Assembly (NCBI GenBank): GCA_028825365.1
Contig: JAPKAF010000015.1
Coordinates: 1-33,655 of the forward strand
Length of the DNA: 33,655 nt
Direction of reading: 5' to 3'
Source of the DNA: Flavobacteriaceae bacterium
Lineage (GTDB): Bacteria; Bacteroidota; Bacteroidia; Flavobacteriales; Flavobacteriaceae
Position numbers and translations under genes: made by a program. Of this stretch, positions 1,011 through 11,813 are shown in pieces (position 1 is the stretch's first letter; each line of letters starts with the position of its first letter). Under the pieces are notes generated by a model. The model saw only the letters and a list, made by a program, of their open reading frames with translations. It had not been told where the DNA came from and made no database searches.

Positions 1011-1043
1011 AAAAAAGGCTACACATTGTGTAGCCTTTTTTTT
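1011..1043. terminator. Bidirectional terminator between rhodopsin and argS
   Basis: GGCTACAC (1017-1024) pairs perfectly with GTGTAGCC (1028-1035) around a three-base loop. A-run at 1011-1016 and T-run at 1036-1043 let it work on both strands. It lies between the convergent ends of the rhodopsin gene (988) and argS (1059). Confidence 0.92.
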
Positions 1044-1058
1044 ATACAATAAATTCTA

Positions 1059-2840
1059 TTACATTTTTTGAACTACTCCAATACCTAATAGGTCTAACGC
1101 ATTTTTTATAGCAAAAGATACTGCTTTAGAAAGCTGAAGTCTAAACATTTTTCTATCCTCAAAAGAAGTCTTTAGAATGGGTGAAGAGTGATAGAAAGAA
1201 TTAAAGACCTTAACTAAATCATATAAGTAGTTAGCAATTAAAGCAGGGCTATGGATATTAGCTGCTTTTTGAATTGCAGTTGGAAACATAAGTAATTGTT
1301 TAATTAAATCTTTCTCTACAGCTTCTACCTTTCCATTATAATCTTCAACACTAACTTTATCAATCTTTCTTAAAATAGCCTGAATCCTTACATATGAGTA
1401 CTGAATGAAGGGCCCTGTATTTCCTTGAAAATCTACAGATTCTTTAGGGTCAAATAAGATTCTCTTTTTAGGGTCTACTTTCAAAATAAAATATTTTAAA
1501 GCACCTTGACCTATAACATTATATACCTTATTTTTTTCATCTTCATTTAAGTCCTCTAACTTTCCTAGCTCTAGAGAAATATCTCTTGCAGTAGTTGTCA
1601 TTTCCTCTAATAAATCATCCGCATCTACAACAGTACCTTCTCTACTTTTCATCTTTCCACTAGGGAGATCTACCATACCATAACTTAAATGATGTAGATT
1701 ATTAGACCAACCAAAACCTAGTTTTTTAAGTATCAAAAACAATACTTTAAAATGATAGTCTTGCTCGTTACCAACAGTATAAACCATTGAGTTTATAGTA
1801 GGATAATCTTTAACTCTTTGAATTGCAGTACCAATATCTTGCGTCATATAAACAGCAGTACCATCAGATCTTAAAACAATTTTTTCATCTAACCCATCTT
1901 CAGTTAAATCACACCAAACACTTCCATCTTCCTTCTTGAAAAAAACATTTTCAGAAAGACCTTGTTTTATAAATTCTTTACCTAACAAATAGGTTTCACT
2001 TTCGTAATAGTAGTTATCAAAATCTACCCCAAGAGTTTTATAAGTTTGCGCAAAACCCTTATAAACCCATTCATTCATTGTTTTCCACAACTTAACAACC
2101 TCATCATCTCCAGCTTCCCACTTTAAAAGCATTTTTTGGGCTTCAACTAAAATAGCTGCATTTTTTTTTGCGTCCTCCTCAGAATTACCATCTTCAACAA
2201 GAAGACTAATTTGTTTTTTATACTCCTTGTCAAATAAAACATAGTATTTACCGACTAACTTATCACCCTTTACAGAAGTAGATTCAGGTGTTTCCCCATT
2301 TCCAAACTTAACCCAAGCAACCATACTCTTACATATGTGTATACCTCTGTCATTAATTATTTGAGTTTTTAGAACATTTCTACCAGATGCTTTTAATATC
2401 TGAGATACACTAAAACCTAATAAGTTATTTCTAATATGACCTAAGTGAAGTGGCTTATTTGTATTCGGTGAAGAATATTCAACCATGGTATAATCAGAAG
2501 TAGTAGGTTTTACAAAACCAAAATCACTTTTTTCTTTAATAGAATTAAATTGATTTAAGTAGTACTCATCAGAAACAACAATATTTAGAAAACCCGAAAC
2601 AACATTAAAAGATGTAAAAGAGTTTTCAGCACCAACTATATACTCACCTAGCTTATTCGCAAGCTCCATTGGGCTTGTTTTAATGGACTTTAGCAAAGGA
2701 AATACCACTATTGTTAAGTCACCCTCAAAGTCACTTCTAGTAGGCTGAATTTCAACAGTAGCTATATTTATTTTGTACAAATCATTAATTGCTGTTATTG
2801 CAATAGACTTTAATGTAGATTCAATATTCATTTCGTTCAT
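1059..2840 (-). CDS. argS: Arginyl-tRNA synthetase
   Basis: This class I aminoacyl-tRNA synthetase (593 residues) charges tRNA-Arg with arginine using ATP in the cytoplasm. The N-terminal tRNA-binding (Add-1) domain covers about 1-100. The ATP-binding HIGH motif appears as HLGH at 132-135 after SSPNTNKP, and the KMSK-type loop as KMKSREG at 396-402. The last 130 or so residues form the DALR anticodon-binding domain. Length is normal. A second ATG at codon 4 is an alternative start. It begins 30 bases after the ctlX-like gene with no terminator between, so it is probably the last gene of that transcript. Confidence 0.97.
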   Translation of the reverse strand: MNEMNIESTLKSIAITAINDLYKINIATVEIQPTRSDFEGDLTIVVFPLLKSIKTSPMELANKLGEYIVGAENSFTSFNVVSGFLNIVVSDEYYLNQFNSIKEKSDFGFVKPTTSDYTMVEYSSPNTNKPLHLGHIRNNLLGFSVSQILKASGRNVLKTQIINDRGIHICKSMVAWVKFGNGETPESTSVKGDKLVGKYYVLFDKEYKKQISLLVEDGNSEEDAKKNAAILVEAQKMLLKWEAGDDEVVKLWKTMNEWVYKGFAQTYKTLGVDFDNYYYESETYLLGKEFIKQGLSENVFFKKEDGSVWCDLTEDGLDEKIVLRSDGTAVYMTQDIGTAIQRVKDYPTINSMVYTVGNEQDYHFKVLFLILKKLGFGWSNNLHHLSYGMVDLPSGKMKSREGTVVDADDLLEEMTTTARDISLELGKLEDLNEDEKNKVYNVIGQGALKYFILKVDPKKRILFDPKESVDFQGNTGPFIQYSYVRIQAILRKIDKVSVEDYNGKVEAVEKDLIKQLLMFPTAIQKAANIHSPALIANYLYDLVKVFNSFYHSSPILKTSFEDRKMFRLQLSKAVSFAIKNALDLLGIGVVQKM

Positions 2841-2870: not shown

Positions 2871-3821
2871 CTATTTTGTTTTTGGTAAAAACACTTCCGC
2901 CATCATACATCTAGCACTTCCTCCTCCATAAGTTTCAATTGTACTAAGTGAACTAAATACAATTTTAGCATATTTATTTATAGTGTTTTTTTGTTGGTTA
3001 GTTAACACATTATATGCTGATTCACTCATAACTAATAATGGGTTATTATTTCTATCTAATAGTTGCAGCATGTTACCTGCGAAAGAATTAACTTGATTTT
3101 CAGATATTTCTATAATTTCTTTTCCGTCAGTTAACAAATGAGAAATTACATTTTTTTTCTCCTTTTTATCATCAATGCAGTCCAAACAAATAACAGCAAA
3201 ATCATCTGCAACACACATCATAACGTTTGTGTGATATATCAGCTCCCTTTTATCTTTAATTGACTGATACGCATTAAAAATAACTGGAGTATATTCAAAA
3301 TCTTCACAAAACTCAATCAATAGATCTTCATTGGACCTCTCAGAAACTGCACAATAAGCTTTTCTATTTACTCTGTCTAAAACTACACTACCCGTTCCTT
3401 CTAAAAACAAACCTGCTTCTTCTCCGGAAGAATAGTCGATAACATTATTAATTAAATGGTTGTTTTTTTCGACAAACTCCATCACATCTTCTCTTCTTTC
3501 CTGTCTTCTATTTTCAGCATACATAGGGTATAGTGCTAAATCACCATTTGAATGAAAAGACACCCAATTGTTAGGAAATAATGAGTCTGGAGTATCAAAC
3601 TTATTATCATCCTGAAATACTATAACATTGACTCCAATAGATCTAAGTTTTAAAACTAAATTATCAAATTCAGATTGGGCTTTTAAGTTAATTTGATCAG
3701 AACTATTATTAGGCTCTACTACCTTTTGATAATGATTATTAACAGCTGTTTGCACATTGTAATTAAATGCAAATGGTCTAATCATCATAATTGTATTTGT
3801 ACTTTGTTTGTTCACAGTCAT
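2871..3821 (-). CDS. ctlX: Citrulline hydrolase-like protein of the guanidino-modifying superfamily (CtlX type)
   Basis: The open frame extends to 3851, but I place the start at the internal ATG at 3821, giving 316 residues: this ATG overlaps the stop of the upstream gene as TAATG, and the ten extra codons look like antisense-free read-through of that gene. Superfamily residues are visible: PDSLFPNNWVSFH near the start of the fold, Glu141 in FLEGTGS, His197 in YHTNVMM and the nucleophile Cys305 in GGGSARCM (numbered from the chosen start). The block LYPMYAENRRQERR is typical of CtlX-like proteins. The Francisella founding member hydrolyses citrulline to ornithine, CO2 and ammonia; that activity here is inferred. 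It could act on another ureido or guanidino compound. It is followed by argS. Confidence 0.8.
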   Translation of the reverse strand: MTVNKQSTNTIMMIRPFAFNYNVQTAVNNHYQKVVEPNNSSDQINLKAQSEFDNLVLKLRSIGVNVIVFQDDNKFDTPDSLFPNNWVSFHSNGDLALYPMYAENRRQERREDVMEFVEKNNHLINNVIDYSSGEEAGLFLEGTGSVVLDRVNRKAYCAVSERSNEDLLIEFCEDFEYTPVIFNAYQSIKDKRELIYHTNVMMCVADDFAVICLDCIDDKKEKKNVISHLLTDGKEIIEISENQVNSFAGNMLQLLDRNNNPLLVMSESAYNVLTNQQKNTINKYAKIVFSSLSTIETYGGGSARCMMAEVFLPKTK

Positions 3822-4735
3822 TACTTTCTTATTAAAGGCATAGTTGAACACCTTAACAAACCTTCTTGTTTAGCTATTTCTGAATATTTAATAGTCTCAA
3901 CTTCGAATCCGTTTGAGTTTAGCCATTTATTTAACCTGTTGAATTTATTTTCTGATACTACTATATTTTCAGAAATAGAAAACACATTACAGTTCATATT
4001 GTACATCTCTTCTTTTGTAGTTTGAAAAATATTTTCTTTTCCAAAAAAATCTATTAGCCAATCACACTCGTCTTTTATTAAAAAACCTTCTGGATGTAAT
4101 ATTGCTTTATTATTTCCAAGTGGCTGAAAGCAACAGTCCAGATGAAGGGCATTGTCTTTTGGTGAGTTATTTGACTTTCTTAACTCAAAAGTCTTAATAG
4201 TTTTATTGGGGAAAATTTCTCTCAGCGCGTTGACAGCGTTAACATTGGTCCTAGCGGTTATATAATTAGAATAATCTTCACCACTATAAATTCCAATAAA
4301 AATATGATCATTACAAAGTATCACATCACCACCCTCAATATGACAATCACTACTAAGTCTAATTACGTTTTTAGCGGGTATCTGATCGATTATATGATTA
4401 ATTGCAGATAATTCTAAGGATCTGTTGTCAATCATATTAGATAAGATAATTTTATCTTCAATTACAAATGAAATATCTCTAGTAAATATCTGATTATAAT
4501 CAGATATTTCTTTTGGTCTATAAACTTTTACTTTGTGTTTTTTTAAAACATCCTCAAATAAACCTAACTCGGCTATCATATCAAGCTCTGTTGGGTAAGT
4601 ACCATTTAAGATATGCTCTTTAGACTTTGGATCATAGCAATCTTCAATTTTAGGAATTGGCCCATTAGAAACAGCAGTACCTAAAATTACGGATACTAAT
4701 TTAGAGGTCTCATTGTTAATATTAATTTTTAACAT
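3821..4735 (-). CDS. DDAH / arginine deiminase-like amidinohydrolase
   Basis: This 304-residue protein belongs to the pentein guanidino-modifying superfamily. Expected active-site pieces are present in order: Asp87 in FTRD, Glu134 in HIEGGD, His198 in ALHLDCCFQPLG and the Cys nucleophile at 296 in GLLRCSTMP. Such enzymes attack a guanidino carbon through a thiouronium intermediate. The likely product is citrulline, from arginine or methylarginine, but an amidinotransferase is not excluded. At about 300 residues it is closer to DDAH than to classical arginine deiminases of about 410. It shares a TAATG junction with the following ctlX-like gene, which argues for consecutive steps. It starts 42 bases after citrate synthase with no hairpin between. 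A weak TATCTTTA at 4751-4758 could be its own -7 element. Confidence 0.82.
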   Translation of the reverse strand: MLKININNETSKLVSVILGTAVSNGPIPKIEDCYDPKSKEHILNGTYPTELDMIAELGLFEDVLKKHKVKVYRPKEISDYNQIFTRDISFVIEDKIILSNMIDNRSLELSAINHIIDQIPAKNVIRLSSDCHIEGGDVILCNDHIFIGIYSGEDYSNYITARTNVNAVNALREIFPNKTIKTFELRKSNNSPKDNALHLDCCFQPLGNNKAILHPEGFLIKDECDWLIDFFGKENIFQTTKEEMYNMNCNVFSISENIVVSENKFNRLNKWLNSNGFEVETIKYSEIAKQEGLLRCSTMPLIRK

Positions 4736-4777: not shown

Positions 4778-6073
4778 TTATCTGTCAGAGATAGGAGAAT
4801 ATGGTCTGTGTGTCTCACCTGTGTAGACTTGTCTTGGCCTACCAATTGGTTCATTACGCAGCCTCATTTCTCTCCAATGAGCTATCCAACCTGGAAGTCT
4901 ACCTAAGGCAAACATAACGGTGAACATATCAGATGGGATACCCATGGCTCTATAGATGATACCAGAGTAAAAATCAACATTTGGATATAAACTTCTATCC
5001 ACAAAATACTGATCACTTAAAGCTTCTTTTTCAAGTCCCTTTGCAATATCTAAAATAGGATCTACAATTCCGAGGTCATTTAAAACTTCGTCAGTTGCAA
5101 CTTTGATTATTTTTGCTCGAGGATCAAAACTTTTGTAAACTCTATGACCAAAGCCCATTAATCTAAATGGATCTTCTTTGTCTTTCGCTTTTTGCATGTA
5201 CTTATTAGTATCTCCGCCATCTTCATTAATTGATTCAAGCATTTCTAATACAGCTTGGTTTGCACCACCATGAAGTGGACCCCACAGAGCAGAAATTCCA
5301 GCAGAAATTGAGGCAAATAAACCAGCATGTGACGAACCAACTATTCTAACTGTTGAAGTAGAGCAGTTTTGTTCATGATCAGCATGAAGAATTAAAAGCT
5401 TATTTAAAGAATTAACTAAAACAGGATTTTGGACATACTGTTCATTTGGTTTATTGAACATCATTTTCAAAATATTTTCAACGTAACCTAAAGAAGAATC
5501 TCCATAATCTAGTGGTAGTCCATTCTTTTTTCTAAAAGTCCAAGCAATTAAGACTGGTATTTTACCTAAAACTTTAACAATAGTATCATATAGCTCGGAT
5601 TTACTTCTATCGTAATCTATATGTTTTGAACTAGGATTAAATGCAGTTAAAGCACTAGTTAAGGAAGATAAAATCCCCATTGGATGAGCTGATTTTGGAA
5701 AGGCTTCTAATATTTTCTTTATATCCTCATCAACAATACTTTCTTTTTTTATGTCATCATTGAACTTCTTGTACTCTTCTTGAGTTGGAAGATTACCATA
5801 TATTAGTAAATATGCAACTTCTAAAAAACTAGCATTATTAGACAAATCTTCAATTGAATAACCTCTGTATCTTAAAATACCTTTCTCACCATCTAAGTAT
5901 GTGATTTTACTTTCACATGATGCAGTGTTCTTAAAACCTGGATCAATAGTAGTAACTCCACCAGTAAGTGATCTTAAGTTTTTTATATCTATAGAAGTTT
6001 CATTTTCAGAACCTAAAACAATAGGAAAATCAAATTCTTGATTATTTATTAAAAGTGTAGCTTTTTTTGACAT
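4778..6073 (-). CDS. gltA: Citrate synthase (type II)
   Basis: This protein (431 residues) condenses acetyl-CoA and oxaloacetate to citrate at the entry of the TCA cycle. Catalytic residues are visible: His268 in GPLHGGAN, His310 in GFGHRVYK and Asp367 in NVDFYSG. An extra N-terminal beta domain (about 1-50) and the length fit the hexameric, NADH-sensitive type found in Gram-negative bacteria; the allostery itself cannot be read from the sequence. It lies downstream of eno with a 66-base gap that contains a -7-like box, so it may have its own promoter. Confidence 0.97.
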   Translation of the reverse strand: MSKKATLLINNQEFDFPIVLGSENETSIDIKNLRSLTGGVTTIDPGFKNTASCESKITYLDGEKGILRYRGYSIEDLSNNASFLEVAYLLIYGNLPTQEEYKKFNDDIKKESIVDEDIKKILEAFPKSAHPMGILSSLTSALTAFNPSSKHIDYDRSKSELYDTIVKVLGKIPVLIAWTFRKKNGLPLDYGDSSLGYVENILKMMFNKPNEQYVQNPVLVNSLNKLLILHADHEQNCSTSTVRIVGSSHAGLFASISAGISALWGPLHGGANQAVLEMLESINEDGGDTNKYMQKAKDKEDPFRLMGFGHRVYKSFDPRAKIIKVATDEVLNDLGIVDPILDIAKGLEKEALSDQYFVDRSLYPNVDFYSGIIYRAMGIPSDMFTVMFALGRLPGWIAHWREMRLRNEPIGRPRQVYTGETHRPYSPISDR

Positions 6074-6139: not shown

Positions 6140-7426
6140 CTACGATTTAAACGCGCTAGCTTTAGGGTAAATAGCTCGTGAACCTAGTTCCTCTTCGATT
6201 CTTAGTAATTGGTTATACTTAGCCATTCTATCACTACGAGATGCTGAGCCTGTCTTAATTTGACAAGTAGTAAGTGCTACAGCTAAATCAGCAATTGTAT
6301 TATCTTCTGTTTCACCTGATCTGTGTGACATAACAGATGTAAATCCAGCTTTGTGTGCCATTTCAACAGCTTGAATAGTCTCTGTCAAAGTGCCAATTTG
6401 ATTTACTTTAATTAAAATCGAATTAGCTATTGACTCATTTATTCCTTTAGATAATCTATCTACATTGGTAACAAATAAATCATCACCAACTAATTGAATT
6501 TTGTCTCCAATAATTTCTGTTAAATACTTCCAACCTTCCCAGTCATTTTCATCCATTCCATCTTCAATTGATATAATTGGATATTTAGAAGCAAGGCTTG
6601 CTAAGTAGTCAGCTTGTTCTTTACTTGATCTAACCTTACCCTGTTCACCTTCAAATTTTTTATAATTATACTCATTATTTTCATAAAACTCAGCGGCAGC
6701 ACAATCAAGAGCAATCATTACATCTTTACCAAAACTATAGCCTGCATTTTCAACAGCTAAAGCTATAGTATCTAATGCGTCCTCAGTACCGTCTAACACG
6801 GGAGCAAAACCTCCTTCATCTCCGACAGCAGTACTTAATTTTCTACTTTTCAATACAATTTTAAGATGATGAAATATCTCACTACCCATCTGCATTGCAT
6901 GAGTGAAAGACTCAGCAAGTACTGGAACCACCATAAACTCCTGAAAGGCAATAGGCGAATCACTATGCGATCCTCCATTAATAATATTCATCATGGGAAC
7001 AGGTAGTGTGCAAACATCTTCTCCTCCAATATATTTATACAATGGAATGTTTTTTTCATTTGCTGCAGCTTTTGCAACAGCTAATGAAACACCTAAAATT
7101 GAATTTGCTCCTAATTTTGACTTATTTGGAGTTCCATCTAAATCAATCATTATATTATCTATTTCTGTTTGATTAAAAACGGAAATACCTAAAACGGATT
7201 GTGCAAGAATTTCATTAACGTTACTCACGGCAATTTTCACACCTTTACCCATATAATCAGATCCACCATCTCTTAATTCAACAGCTTCATGTTCACCGGT
7301 AGATGCTCCAGAAGGAACAGCTGCCCTACCCAAAGTACCATTATCAGTAATAACATCAACTTCAATAGTTGGGTTACCTCTTGAATCAAAGATTTGCCTA
7401 GCGTGAATTTTTTTGATATTTGACAT
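6140..7426 (-). CDS. eno: Enolase
   Basis: This 428-residue protein interconverts 2-phosphoglycerate and phosphoenolpyruvate in glycolysis and gluconeogenesis. The N-terminal capping domain carries the flexible loop [11 protein letters not shown]. The barrel domain has the catalytic acid Glu204 in VGDEGGF, magnesium ligands Asp241, Glu288 (SIEDGMDE) and Asp315 (GDDLF), the general base Lys340 in LIKVNQIGT and the signature [10 protein letters not shown] from 367. Nothing is missing. It lies 99 bases after carA, with no terminator hairpin in that gap. Confidence 0.98.
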
Positions 7427-7525: not shown

Positions 7526-8626
7526 TTATTTCTTCATATTCTCAACAAACTCATCAAACAAATATGAGGAATCATGAGGTCCTGGGCTAGCCTCAGGATG
7601 AAATTGGACAGAAAAACAGTTACTATTTTTAAGCCTAATGCCGGCAACAGTATCATCATTCAAGTGAATGTGAGTGATTTCTATGTTCTCATTAGACAGG
7701 GCATCTTCTTTATTTATTGCAAAACCATGATTTTGAGAAGTTATTTCCCCCTTACCAGTAATTAGGTTTTTCACAGGATGGTTAATTCCTCGATGGCCAT
7801 TATGCATTTTGTATGTAGCAATTCCGTTAGCAAGTGCAATAATTTGATGTCCAAGACAAATTCCAAATAGCGGTAAATTATTTTTGATTATTTTTTTTGC
7901 AACTAACTGAGCACTTTTCAAAGGTTCAGGGTCACCAGGGCCATTTGATAAGAAATAACCATCAGGATTCCATTTCTTCATTTCCTCAAAGGATGTGTCA
8001 AAAGGAAAAACTTTTATATAAACATCTCTACTAGCTAAATTCCTTAAAATATTCTTTTTAATTCCTAAATCTAGAGCAGCTACTTTATACTTGGATTTTT
8101 CATTTCCAAAAAAATATGAAGATTTGGTAGAAACCTCTGACGCTAATTCAAGACCTACCATAGAAGGGACAGAAAGCAGTTTTTTTGATAAGCTTTCTAA
8201 ATTATCTACATCAGTAGTTATAACAGCATTCATAGCTCCGTTCTCCCTGATATAACTAACTAAAGCCCGTGTATCAATATCAGAAATTGCAAAAAGATGA
8301 TTCTTATTTAAAAAATCCTCGAGAGAGCTATCTGCTAATTCTCTCGAATAATTGTAACTAAAGTTTTTACAAATTAAGCCTGAAATTTTTATAGAATCTG
8401 ATTCAGACTCATCATTATTTATTCCATAATTACCTATATGTGGATTGGTCATAACCATTAACTGACCAAAATAAGAAGGATCAGTATATATTTCTTGATA
8501 ACCAGTCATACCAGTATTAAAACAAACTTCTCCAAAAGCAGTACCATCACCGAAAACAGACTTACCATAAAATATAGTGCCGTCAGATAATAATAATATA
8601 GCTTTCTTTCTTTTTTTATATTCCAT
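7526..8626 (-). CDS. carA: Carbamoyl-phosphate synthase small (glutaminase) subunit
   Basis: This subunit (366 residues) hydrolyses glutamine and passes ammonia to the large subunit CarB, making carbamoyl phosphate for pyrimidine and arginine synthesis. The N-terminal CPSase_sm domain (about 8-140) includes FNTGMTGYQEI. The C-terminal class I glutamine amidotransferase has LSNGPGDP, the nucleophile Cys257 in GICLGHQ, and His343 and Glu345 in QFHPEASPGP. carB is not in the window. Its product is relevant to the nearby citrulline-related genes, but shared regulation is only an inference. A terminator lies just upstream, so it is transcribed from its own promoter or from read-through. Confidence 0.97.
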   Translation of the reverse strand: MEYKKRKKAILLLSDGTIFYGKSVFGDGTAFGEVCFNTGMTGYQEIYTDPSYFGQLMVMTNPHIGNYGINNDESESDSIKISGLICKNFSYNYSRELADSSLEDFLNKNHLFAISDIDTRALVSYIRENGAMNAVITTDVDNLESLSKKLLSVPSMVGLELASEVSTKSSYFFGNEKSKYKVAALDLGIKKNILRNLASRDVYIKVFPFDTSFEEMKKWNPDGYFLSNGPGDPEPLKSAQLVAKKIIKNNLPLFGICLGHQIIALANGIATYKMHNGHRGINHPVKNLITGKGEITSQNHGFAINKEDALSNENIEITHIHLNDDTVAGIRLKNSNCFSVQFHPEASPGPHDSSYLFDEFVENMKK

Positions 8627-8670: not shown

Positions 8671-8700
8671 AAAAAAAGAGGTTAAATTTCTTAACCTCTT
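8671..8700 (-). terminator. Rho-independent terminator ahead of carA
   Basis: AAGAGGTTAA (8676-8685) pairs perfectly with TTAACCTCTT (8691-8700) around ATTTC. The A-run at 8671-8677 becomes a U-run in the minus-strand transcript. It ends transcription of the secreted-protein gene. It is the first clear terminator met by leftward transcription after the ribosomal gene cluster. Confidence 0.88.
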
Positions 8701-8755: not shown

Positions 8756-9469
8756 CTAAATACTGTTATAATACTCAAGAACTTTAACTACTCCTTCTAC
8801 GTTCTTTAATGAAAGTGAATTTGAATCCACAAACATATCAAGTTTAGATGAATCTGATTTATCTAATTTTAAAGTTTTGAAAATTGATTTCTTTTTTAAT
8901 TTTACCGGATTGATCGTTCCATTAATCATAATAAAGTAATCTTCTCCACGAACATACTTATCATTTGGTCTATTAACTAATGGATTAGCTGAGCCTGCAA
9001 TTAACTTAACTTCAAAACCTTTCATCAATTTATAGTTGTCAGAATCGTATAACATTTCGTAAACTCGGTTATCATCATCATAATAATAATTCTTGTAGAC
9101 TTTGTTATTGATAACAATTTTTTTAATGTTATTGAACGTAAAAGAAAAAATCGAATCAGAATCATTCATTTTCGCCTCAAAAGAATTTCTTTGAAGGTTT
9201 AAATTAATTCGTTTTACCAAAAACTTATCATCAGAAAGTGTGTGAATAACTGCTGTATTGTTCCAATCTTCAAATAGATGAAACTTACCGTCAATTTGTC
9301 TTTTTGGATTATAAAACATCATAGAATTACCATAACTACTTCCGTTACCAGCAGCTAATTGAGCATATTTCTCCATAGCTTGACTTCCTCCAGCATCTAC
9401 AGAACTAGTCTGGGCTAGGGCGATAAAACTACTTAACAAAAATGTAATAAATAAAATGAGATTCTTCAT
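8756..9469 (-). CDS. Secreted protein of unknown function
   Basis: I do not recognise this 237-residue protein. The N terminus is a clear signal peptide (Lys3, a hydrophobic stretch 4-18, then LAQ with cleavage near residue 20), so it is exported to the periplasm or envelope. There is no lipobox cysteine. The mature part is polar and Asn/Asp/Lys/Tyr-rich, with predicted beta character (for example KFHLFEDWNN and KNYYYDDDNRVYEMLYD), but no catalytic motif. It lies 91 bases after rplQ, and I saw no convincing terminator between, so it may receive read-through from the ribosomal operon as well as use its own promoter. It ends at the hairpin at 8671-8700. Confidence 0.85.
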   Translation of the reverse strand: MKNLILFITFLLSSFIALAQTSSVDAGGSQAMEKYAQLAAGNGSSYGNSMMFYNPKRQIDGKFHLFEDWNNTAVIHTLSDDKFLVKRINLNLQRNSFEAKMNDSDSIFSFTFNNIKKIVINNKVYKNYYYDDDNRVYEMLYDSDNYKLMKGFEVKLIAGSANPLVNRPNDKYVRGEDYFIMINGTINPVKLKKKSIFKTLKLDKSDSSKLDMFVDSNSLSLKNVEGVVKVLEYYNSI

Positions 9470-11719: not shown

Positions 11720-11741
11720 TGTTTTTTGTTTTTTTAGAGTA

Positions 11742-11778
11742 ACTATGAATTAAGGTCTTAATCTAATCCTTCGATAGT
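11742..11778 (-). promoter_or_regulatory. Candidate structured leader of rpsD
   Basis: In a 94-base rpsK-rpsD gap, ACTAT (11742-11746) can pair with ATAGT (11774-11778), enclosing a second stem ATTAA (11749-11753) with TTAAT (11758-11762) around a four-base loop. Gaps inside this operon are otherwise mostly under 20 bases. An uS4 autoregulatory site is a reasonable guess, but the helices are short and AT-rich. Confidence 0.3.
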
Positions 11779-11813
11779 ATCTTGTCTCTGATTATACTTA
11801 TTATAAATATTAT

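Follow-up and report, generated by a model that had tools for sequence, protein, structure and literature searches.

A putative split arginine dihydrolase in Flavobacteriaceae that may have been exchanged with arginase at one chromosomal slot

A predicted two-enzyme route from arginine to ornithine

The window analyzed here is a stretch of 33,655 nucleotides from a member of the Flavobacteriaceae (GenBank assembly GCA_028825365.1, contig JAPKAF010000015.1, positions 1 to 33,655), and our subject is a pair of adjacent genes on its minus strand, downstream of the citrate synthase gene gltA. The first, which we call gene A (3821..4735, read from 4735 to 3821), encodes a guanidino-group hydrolase of 304 amino acids (aa), predicted to be of the arginine deiminase type. 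The second, ctlX (2871..3821), encodes a 316-aa predicted citrulline hydrolase. We propose, with a probability of roughly 0.7, that the two proteins are successive enzymes that would convert free L-arginine to L-ornithine by a route that involves neither urea nor urease nor carbamate kinase. For the family as a whole, we lean towards the view that Flavobacteriaceae have a split arginine dihydrolase, made up of a short deiminase clade and CtlX, which would be an ammonia-releasing counterpart of arginase and would have been swapped with it in place after gltA several times.

By analogy with arginine deiminases, Cys296 of A, a protein with FTRD and HLD motifs and a Cys–His–Glu triad, would attack the guanidino carbon of arginine, ammonia would leave, and hydrolysis of the covalent intermediate would yield citrulline. 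CtlX, with FPNN and HTN motifs and its own Cys–His–Glu triad, would then hydrolyze the ureido group of citrulline to give ornithine and carbamate, the latter decaying to CO2 and ammonia, as proposed by Price et al. (2022). The ornithine may be passed to glutamate semialdehyde by ornithine aminotransferase (RocD) or go to other uses.

Identity of the two proteins

The second protein was identified as CtlX by the NCBIfam model NF046062, which it matched at 438.6 bits, over the cut-off of 334. Its motifs are FPNN at residue 82, Glu141, HTN at 197 and Cys305. A Pfam scan returned PF19420 as the sole match and found no PF00795 domain, and among PDB sequences nothing turned up beyond an unrelated protein at chance level (E 0.42). 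The gene is treated in PMC9007349 and PMC12366310. In PMC9007349, Price et al. (2022) propose the citrulline-hydrolase role from fitness data on Phaeobacter and Pseudomonas, take the Asp-to-Asn change described below as an argument for an amide substrate, and state that “biochemical studies will be needed” on the function of the protein. We regard CtlX as a putative citrulline hydrolase, predicted to convert citrulline to ornithine, CO2 and ammonia. The original prediction, made from the sequence of the window, had described the Francisella CtlX as a citrulline ureidase. This was an error: the Francisella enzyme, Ctu, is a PF00795 protein that is not homologous to CtlX, according to the same paper.

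The A protein matched PF02274 at 58.2 bits and PF19420 at 43.3 bits, and it stayed below the curated cut-off of every NCBIfam model that it matched. Two arginine deiminase models gave 48.8 bits (TIGR01078, cut-off 489.1) and 52.5 bits (cut-off 414), the arginine dihydrolase model NF052232 gave 35.7 bits (cut-off 450), and the DDAH models NF045658, NF045659 and NF045660 gave 28.1, 22.8 and 31.1 bits (cut-offs 450, 300 and 340, respectively). When a profile of 18 sequences was compared with solved structures, arginine deiminase came first (34.9 bits), followed by human DDAH1 (27.9 bits) and the cyanobacterial dihydrolase AgrE (25.0 bits), with the amidinotransferases StrB1 (22.7 bits) and AGAT (17.3 bits) lower down. 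The predicted structure of A, with a mean predicted local distance difference test score (pLDDT) of 93.0, aligned with arginine deiminase at Z 29.5, ArgZ at 29.4, the amidinotransferases HsvA and AGAT at 29.3 and 28.8, and DDAH at 25.2–27.3; ranked by Foldseek E-value, amidinotransferases came first. PMC3474736 describes a helical domain of 85 residues as the mark of deiminases, missing from DDAH and amidinotransferases. This domain is also absent from A, whose model shows no such insertion in its secondary structure.

A formed a group of its own in a 55-row tree, apart from the deiminases and from CtlX (support for CtlX 100/100); a very long branch, L189, fell within the A group. Plasmid relatives of A shared 24–29% identity with it, and their annotations name the arginine deiminase or DDAH family (13 records). 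Judged by its sequence, A is a guanidino-group enzyme that forms a clade of its own without a curated name. We also considered a recent tandem duplication as the origin of the pair and rejected it: A and CtlX matched at only 16.9 bits in BLASTP (E 0.56) and fall into separate groups of the tree.

Active-site residues

The residues of arginine deiminase described in PMC3474736 include a Cys/His/Glu triad, two Asp that stabilize the intermediate, and Asn, Arg and Arg among those that bind the amino-acid end. To compare them, we aligned A and CtlX with 20 deiminase-type sequences of Bacteroidota; 16 of the 17 A rows were counted, and the remote A_L157 was dropped. The published residues were matched via the Bacteroidota deiminases and spacing, the Mycoplasma enzyme being outside the alignment. 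Asp87, Arg105, Glu134, Arg162, His198, Asp200 and Cys296 of A were present in 16/16 A rows and identical in 20/20 deiminase-type sequences, and Asn81 was present in 15 of the 16 (one has Asp) and again in 20/20. CtlX, in 10/10 rows, kept the triad and both Arg, and had Asn at the positions of both guanidinium Asp and Asp in place of Asn81. The triads named in the original prediction, Cys296/His198/Glu134 in A and Cys305/His197/Glu141 in CtlX, were correctly placed and align with the arginine deiminase-type triad.

In AgrE, Asn71 of the FTAN motif aligns with Asp87 of A (FTRD), and AgrE also has HLD. Asn71 of AgrE/ArgZ is decisive for a dihydrolase; an N71S mutant of ArgZ is available as entry 6juz. 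We infer that the series Asp/Asp, Asn/Asp and Asn/Asn would correspond to deiminase, dihydrolase and citrulline hydrolase, respectively. The signatures fit a guanidino substrate for A and a ureido substrate for CtlX.

Other sequences also varied at these positions. L190 and L191 are short, carry YTAN or FCAN together with HLD, which is the same Asn/Asp signature as arginine dihydrolase, and lie near CtlX in the tree on long branches; they are candidate dihydrolases in other Bacteroidota. L184–L188 (~292 aa each) represent a further Bacteroidota paralogue of the guanidino fold, with the motifs YCRD, EGGD, FHLMS and PTCL and with the second substrate Asp changed to Met.

Co-occurrence and linkage in Flavobacteriaceae

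The family was sampled evenly, with one genome per genus, to give 120 genomes; family f1 was taken as Flavobacteriaceae from the named loci, which are the best 80 of 578 loci. In counting A, a 25-bit match in G083 was excluded and a broken copy in G051 was included. A was found in 101/120 genomes and CtlX in 111 (110 over cut-off), with both in 99. Only G051, with its broken copy, and G062, which is 84% complete, had A without CtlX, and 12 genomes had CtlX without A. A occurred even in assemblies of 1.4–1.9 Mb. Both genes were on one contig in 85 genomes, and in 79 of these they were on one strand within 13 kb (matched edges), with A always first; in 55 genomes, they were within 1 kb of each other. 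The pairing of A and CtlX is far beyond chance.

The original prediction had asked whether the two genes always co-occur in relatives. They co-occurred in 99/101 genomes with A and were linked in 79/85 with both on one contig; in 20 of 99 genomes the genes are unlinked, and the overlap of the two reading frames seen in the window is not general. At mapped loci where ~10 kb separates A from ctlX, the intervening genes are mostly on the opposite strand, so co-transcription of A and ctlX is not a general feature.

Arginase in place of A

The matches counted as strong arginases scored 207–234 bits with TIGR01229, and six of them exceeded its cut-off (227.6). Below them, the highest score was 127; matches at or below this value, which would lie in the agmatinase/HutG-like range, were left uncounted, and the counts hold among the matches listed. 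Strong arginase was found in 14 of the 120 family genomes. No A was found in any of these 14, and five genomes had neither. Under independence, the chance of zero overlap is 1.7e-14, a figure to be read with the relatedness of the genomes in mind.

In eight loci without A, arginase lay directly after gltA, in the slot that A otherwise occupies. Six of these were from the family sample (L159, L160, L164 and L181, L182, L183) and two from the phylum sample described below (L162 and L163); the slot arginase was called by Pfam in L159, L160, L162, L163 and L164, and by TIGR01229 position in L181–L183. In L162, arginase overlaps ctlX by one base. Seven arginase-slot loci had both eno and gltA, and in a FastTree tree of these two genes from 91 loci (branch support not computed), six changes were needed for the seven, so a swap between arginase and A, or loss from an ancestor with both, seems to have happened repeatedly.

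Since relatives without A mostly carry arginase, often in the same place, the pair appears to stand in for arginase while releasing ammonia. The A–CtlX module would be functionally interchangeable with arginase at the same chromosomal slot, with the guanidino nitrogen leaving as ammonia and not as urea. Among the 11 family genomes with both arginase and CtlX, six had the two genes within 1 kb on one strand with arginase first, two had them within 18 kb, and three had them apart. In L180, from another family (f7), arginase, ctlX and argS are consecutive on the same strand, and their longest open reading frames overlap.

Pathway context

RocD was found over cut-off in 116/120 family genomes, including that of the window. 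Carbamate kinase was over cut-off in 0/120, the window's own genome being 72.6% complete, which leaves no carbamate kinase step open to the citrulline made by A in the family sample. Matches below the cut-off occurred in 39/120 genomes, at up to 44.4 bits; they were confined to the C-terminal part of the model, were not counted, and are probably acetylglutamate kinases. The original prediction had arginine or methylarginine converted to ornithine without carbamate kinase. The arginine route is supported, by inference, by the lack of carbamate kinase over cut-off in the 120 genomes, and methylarginine as the main substrate is weakened because arginase takes the slot of A. Urease was over cut-off in 1/120 genomes, an A genome, and in none of the 14 arginase genomes, which does not support the idea that the latter reclaim urea via urease.

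Distribution beyond the family

The phylum sample comprised 247 genomes, in which A was counted above 140 bits. A was present in 25 of the 27 f1 genomes, in three genomes from a different family of the same order, and in G121, which belongs to a different family of the same class, with remote copies in G312 (39% identity) and G327 (29%). CtlX was present in 58/247. Deiminase was searched for in 61 selected genomes (41 with CtlX and no A, and 20 without CtlX), arginase in 60 and carbamate kinase in 41. Among these 41, carbamate kinase was over cut-off only in G128, a deiminase-positive, CtlX-negative genome.

Of the CtlX-positive, A-less genomes from other families of the class (n = 24), 17 had a strong deiminase, and the other seven all had a strong arginase. 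The deiminase was long (~480–550 aa) in nine of the 17, and in eight of these nine it immediately preceded ctlX on the same strand, the ninth being 49 kb off. Four were scanned (L148:8808-10247, L149:7033-8532, L153:6542-7987 and L158:8837-10381) and reached 223–239 bits with TIGR01078, against its cut-off of 489.1. These long deiminases form a subfamily found ahead of ctlX in several families of Bacteroidia. A, the long deiminase and arginase are each found before ctlX, and three different arginine-consuming enzymes therefore hold that place. This swap of partners is an independent genomic argument that CtlX works with arginine-degrading enzymes. In the CtlX-negative genomes of the class (n = 6), no PF02274 match was found, and arginase was present in four.

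Contrary evidence and alternative explanations

Several observations weigh against the proposal that A and CtlX act in succession on arginine. The functions of both proteins are predicted, that of CtlX from fitness data. On structure-based placement of A among the amidinotransferases, which the original prediction had named as a refutation, the predicted fold gives a tie between arginine deiminase, dihydrolase and amidinotransferase (Z ~28–29.5). Phylogenetic relatedness keeps the genome counts from being independent, and the 20 unlinked pairs comprise 14 on different contigs, five on opposite strands far apart and one separated by 93 kb. The remote A homologues in G312 and G327 occur without CtlX. 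Outside the family, eight of the deiminases found with CtlX are shorter, classical ones on contigs other than that of ctlX, and three of those genomes also have arginase. The supposition that an arginine deiminase without CtlX is always accompanied by carbamate kinase had to be rejected, as this was so in only 1/4 such genomes. CtlX persists in 11/14 arginase genomes (10 over cut-off; 173 bits in G002); A is therefore not the only enzyme that it serves, and its persistence points to a further source of citrulline that it would also handle. Finally, the exclusion between A and arginase is not absolute, since G187, G259 and G334, all of one genus, carry A and a strong arginase on different contigs; they make up 3/21 of the further A genomes searched and 3/13 of the A genomes of that genus.

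Some of these observations would suit A being a one-step arginine dihydrolase, like ArgZ/AgrE, that converts arginine to ornithine, two NH3 and CO2 by itself, with CtlX separately salvaging free citrulline. A and arginase would then exclude each other, as they do in the family sample, and CtlX would remain in genomes with arginase, as it does in 11 of 14. The A model also aligns with ArgZ/AgrE at Z ~29 with a root-mean-square deviation of 2.3 Å, the lowest among rows with Z ≥28. We nevertheless consider this explanation unlikely: A scored 35.7 bits with NF052232 against a cut-off of 450, it has Asp87, as in deiminases, opposite Asn71 of AgrE, and A occurred without CtlX only in G051 and G062 among the 101 family genomes with A, besides the remote copies in G312 and G327.

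That A is a DDAH, with methylated arginine as its main substrate and CtlX taking the citrulline, appears quite improbable. In its favor, DDAH also makes citrulline (PMC11659421), and DDAH1 was second in the profile search at 27.9 bits. A fell below all three DDAH cut-offs, however, and its model aligned less well with DDAH (Z 25.2–27.3) than with arginine deiminase (up to 29.5). Its Arg86–Asp87 is as in arginine deiminase, where human DDAH1 has Glu–Asp, and the same slot is held by arginase and long arginine deiminases, which are free-arginine enzymes.

It is very unlikely that A is an amidinotransferase, which would pass the amidino group from arginine on to an amine and release ornithine, despite the Foldseek ranking, a tie with arginine deiminase in VIA-align (Z 27.8–29.3), and a match of A residues 4–75 to StrB1 (22.7 bits in all). 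By profile, arginine deiminase, DDAH1 and AgrE (34.9, 27.9 and 25.0 bits) all outrank StrB1 and AGAT (22.7 and 17.3 bits). Amidinotransferases typically have Asp as the triad acid; in A it is Glu in 16/16 rows, as in hydrolases. Equally hard to credit is that the linkage of A and ctlX is inherited housekeeping synteny without functional meaning: the carA–eno–gltA neighborhood is indeed broadly conserved, and several genomes have a mostly opposite-strand block between A and ctlX, but non-orthologous arginine consumers (arginase and the long deiminase) lie upstream of ctlX in other lineages, and A and CtlX co-occur even when unlinked (99/101).

Layout of the locus

On the minus strand of the window, the stop codon of A (TAA, 3823–3821) and the start codon of ctlX (ATG, 3821–3819) share one base in the sequence TAATG (3819..3823), as originally noted. 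An overlap of one base is in itself unremarkable. One- or four-base overlaps also occur in L046, L035 and L036, but most linked relatives inspected have a gap of up to ~150 bases. The overlap is not generally conserved among relatives, and we rejected it as a sign of operon significance. The arginyl-tRNA synthetase gene argS (1059..2840; TIGR00456, 421.8 bits against a cut-off of 261.65) begins 30 bases past the ctlX stop, as had been stated. Upstream of A, after a gap of 42 bases, is gltA (4778..6073), followed by eno (6140..7426) and carA (7526..8626); all three were identified by NCBIfam, and all are conserved neighbors on the same strand.

A terminator-like hairpin of 14 pairs with a T-run (1011..1041) lies directly past argS, and another terminator-like hairpin (8676–8700) lies directly before carA, both on the minus strand. 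Since these two bracket the set and the scan found none between them, carA–eno–gltA–A–ctlX–argS could be one transcription unit; the number of terminator-like hairpins in the region is no higher than in shuffled sequence.

Among the named loci, gltA was directly upstream of A, within a carA–eno–gltA string, in 74/80; in 20 of the 38 that show ctlX, argS followed it on the same strand, mostly 2–4 kb off. The closeness of gltA, eno and carA is general synteny. The suggestion of arginine-level control, drawn from the placement beside argS and near carA, was not supported as far as it rests on carA, given that gltA adjoins A in so many loci; no regulatory test was made.

Three other features of the window were observed. 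A rhodopsin gene (PF01036) at 272-988 is convergent with argS, and the same neighbor is present in L036, L037 and L038. Between carA and rplQ, 8756-9469 encodes a 237-aa protein with no Pfam match, whose cluster comprises 14 loci including the window. An S4-Flavobacteria ribosomal protein leader (RF03141, 43.1 bits) is located at 11740-11779, upstream of rpsD.

Comparison with known systems

In the open-licence papers that we looked at, we found no description of an A–CtlX pair in Flavobacteriaceae and nothing relevant on arginine catabolism in this family; on citrullinase in Bacteroidetes, we found only PMC9007349. The second gene of our pair resembles the CtlX of that report in scoring over the NF046062 cut-off and in having FPNN and HTN. 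The copies described there are often beside ocd or aruG in citrulline users, whereas here ctlX is beside an arginine-consuming enzyme and argS. Francisella Ctu has the same proposed reaction as CtlX, but belongs to PF00795 and is stated there to be non-homologous.

ArcA (TIGR01078, PF02274) is the best sequence-profile match of A and is like it in the triad, both guanidinium Asp, and the Asn/Arg/Arg clamp. A differs from it in having 304 aa, in lacking the 85-residue helical domain (PMC3474736), in forming its own clade, and in belonging to a family with carbamate kinase in 0/120 genomes. ArgZ and AgrE have the same fold as A (Z ~29). Their net reaction, arginine to ornithine, ammonia and CO2, is the same as that of the proposed pair. 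There it is carried out by one protein with Asn71 and HLD; here it would be by two, with Asp/Asp and then Asn/Asn. The RocF arginase (TIGR01229, PF00491) has the same net substrate and amino-acid product as predicted for the pair and occupies the same slot in relatives, but belongs to a different Pfam family. Arginase releases urea. If our proposal is true, the content of the slot after gltA would decide whether arginine nitrogen leaves as ammonia or urea, and this one locus would predict which of the two is released by a protein-degrading flavobacterium.

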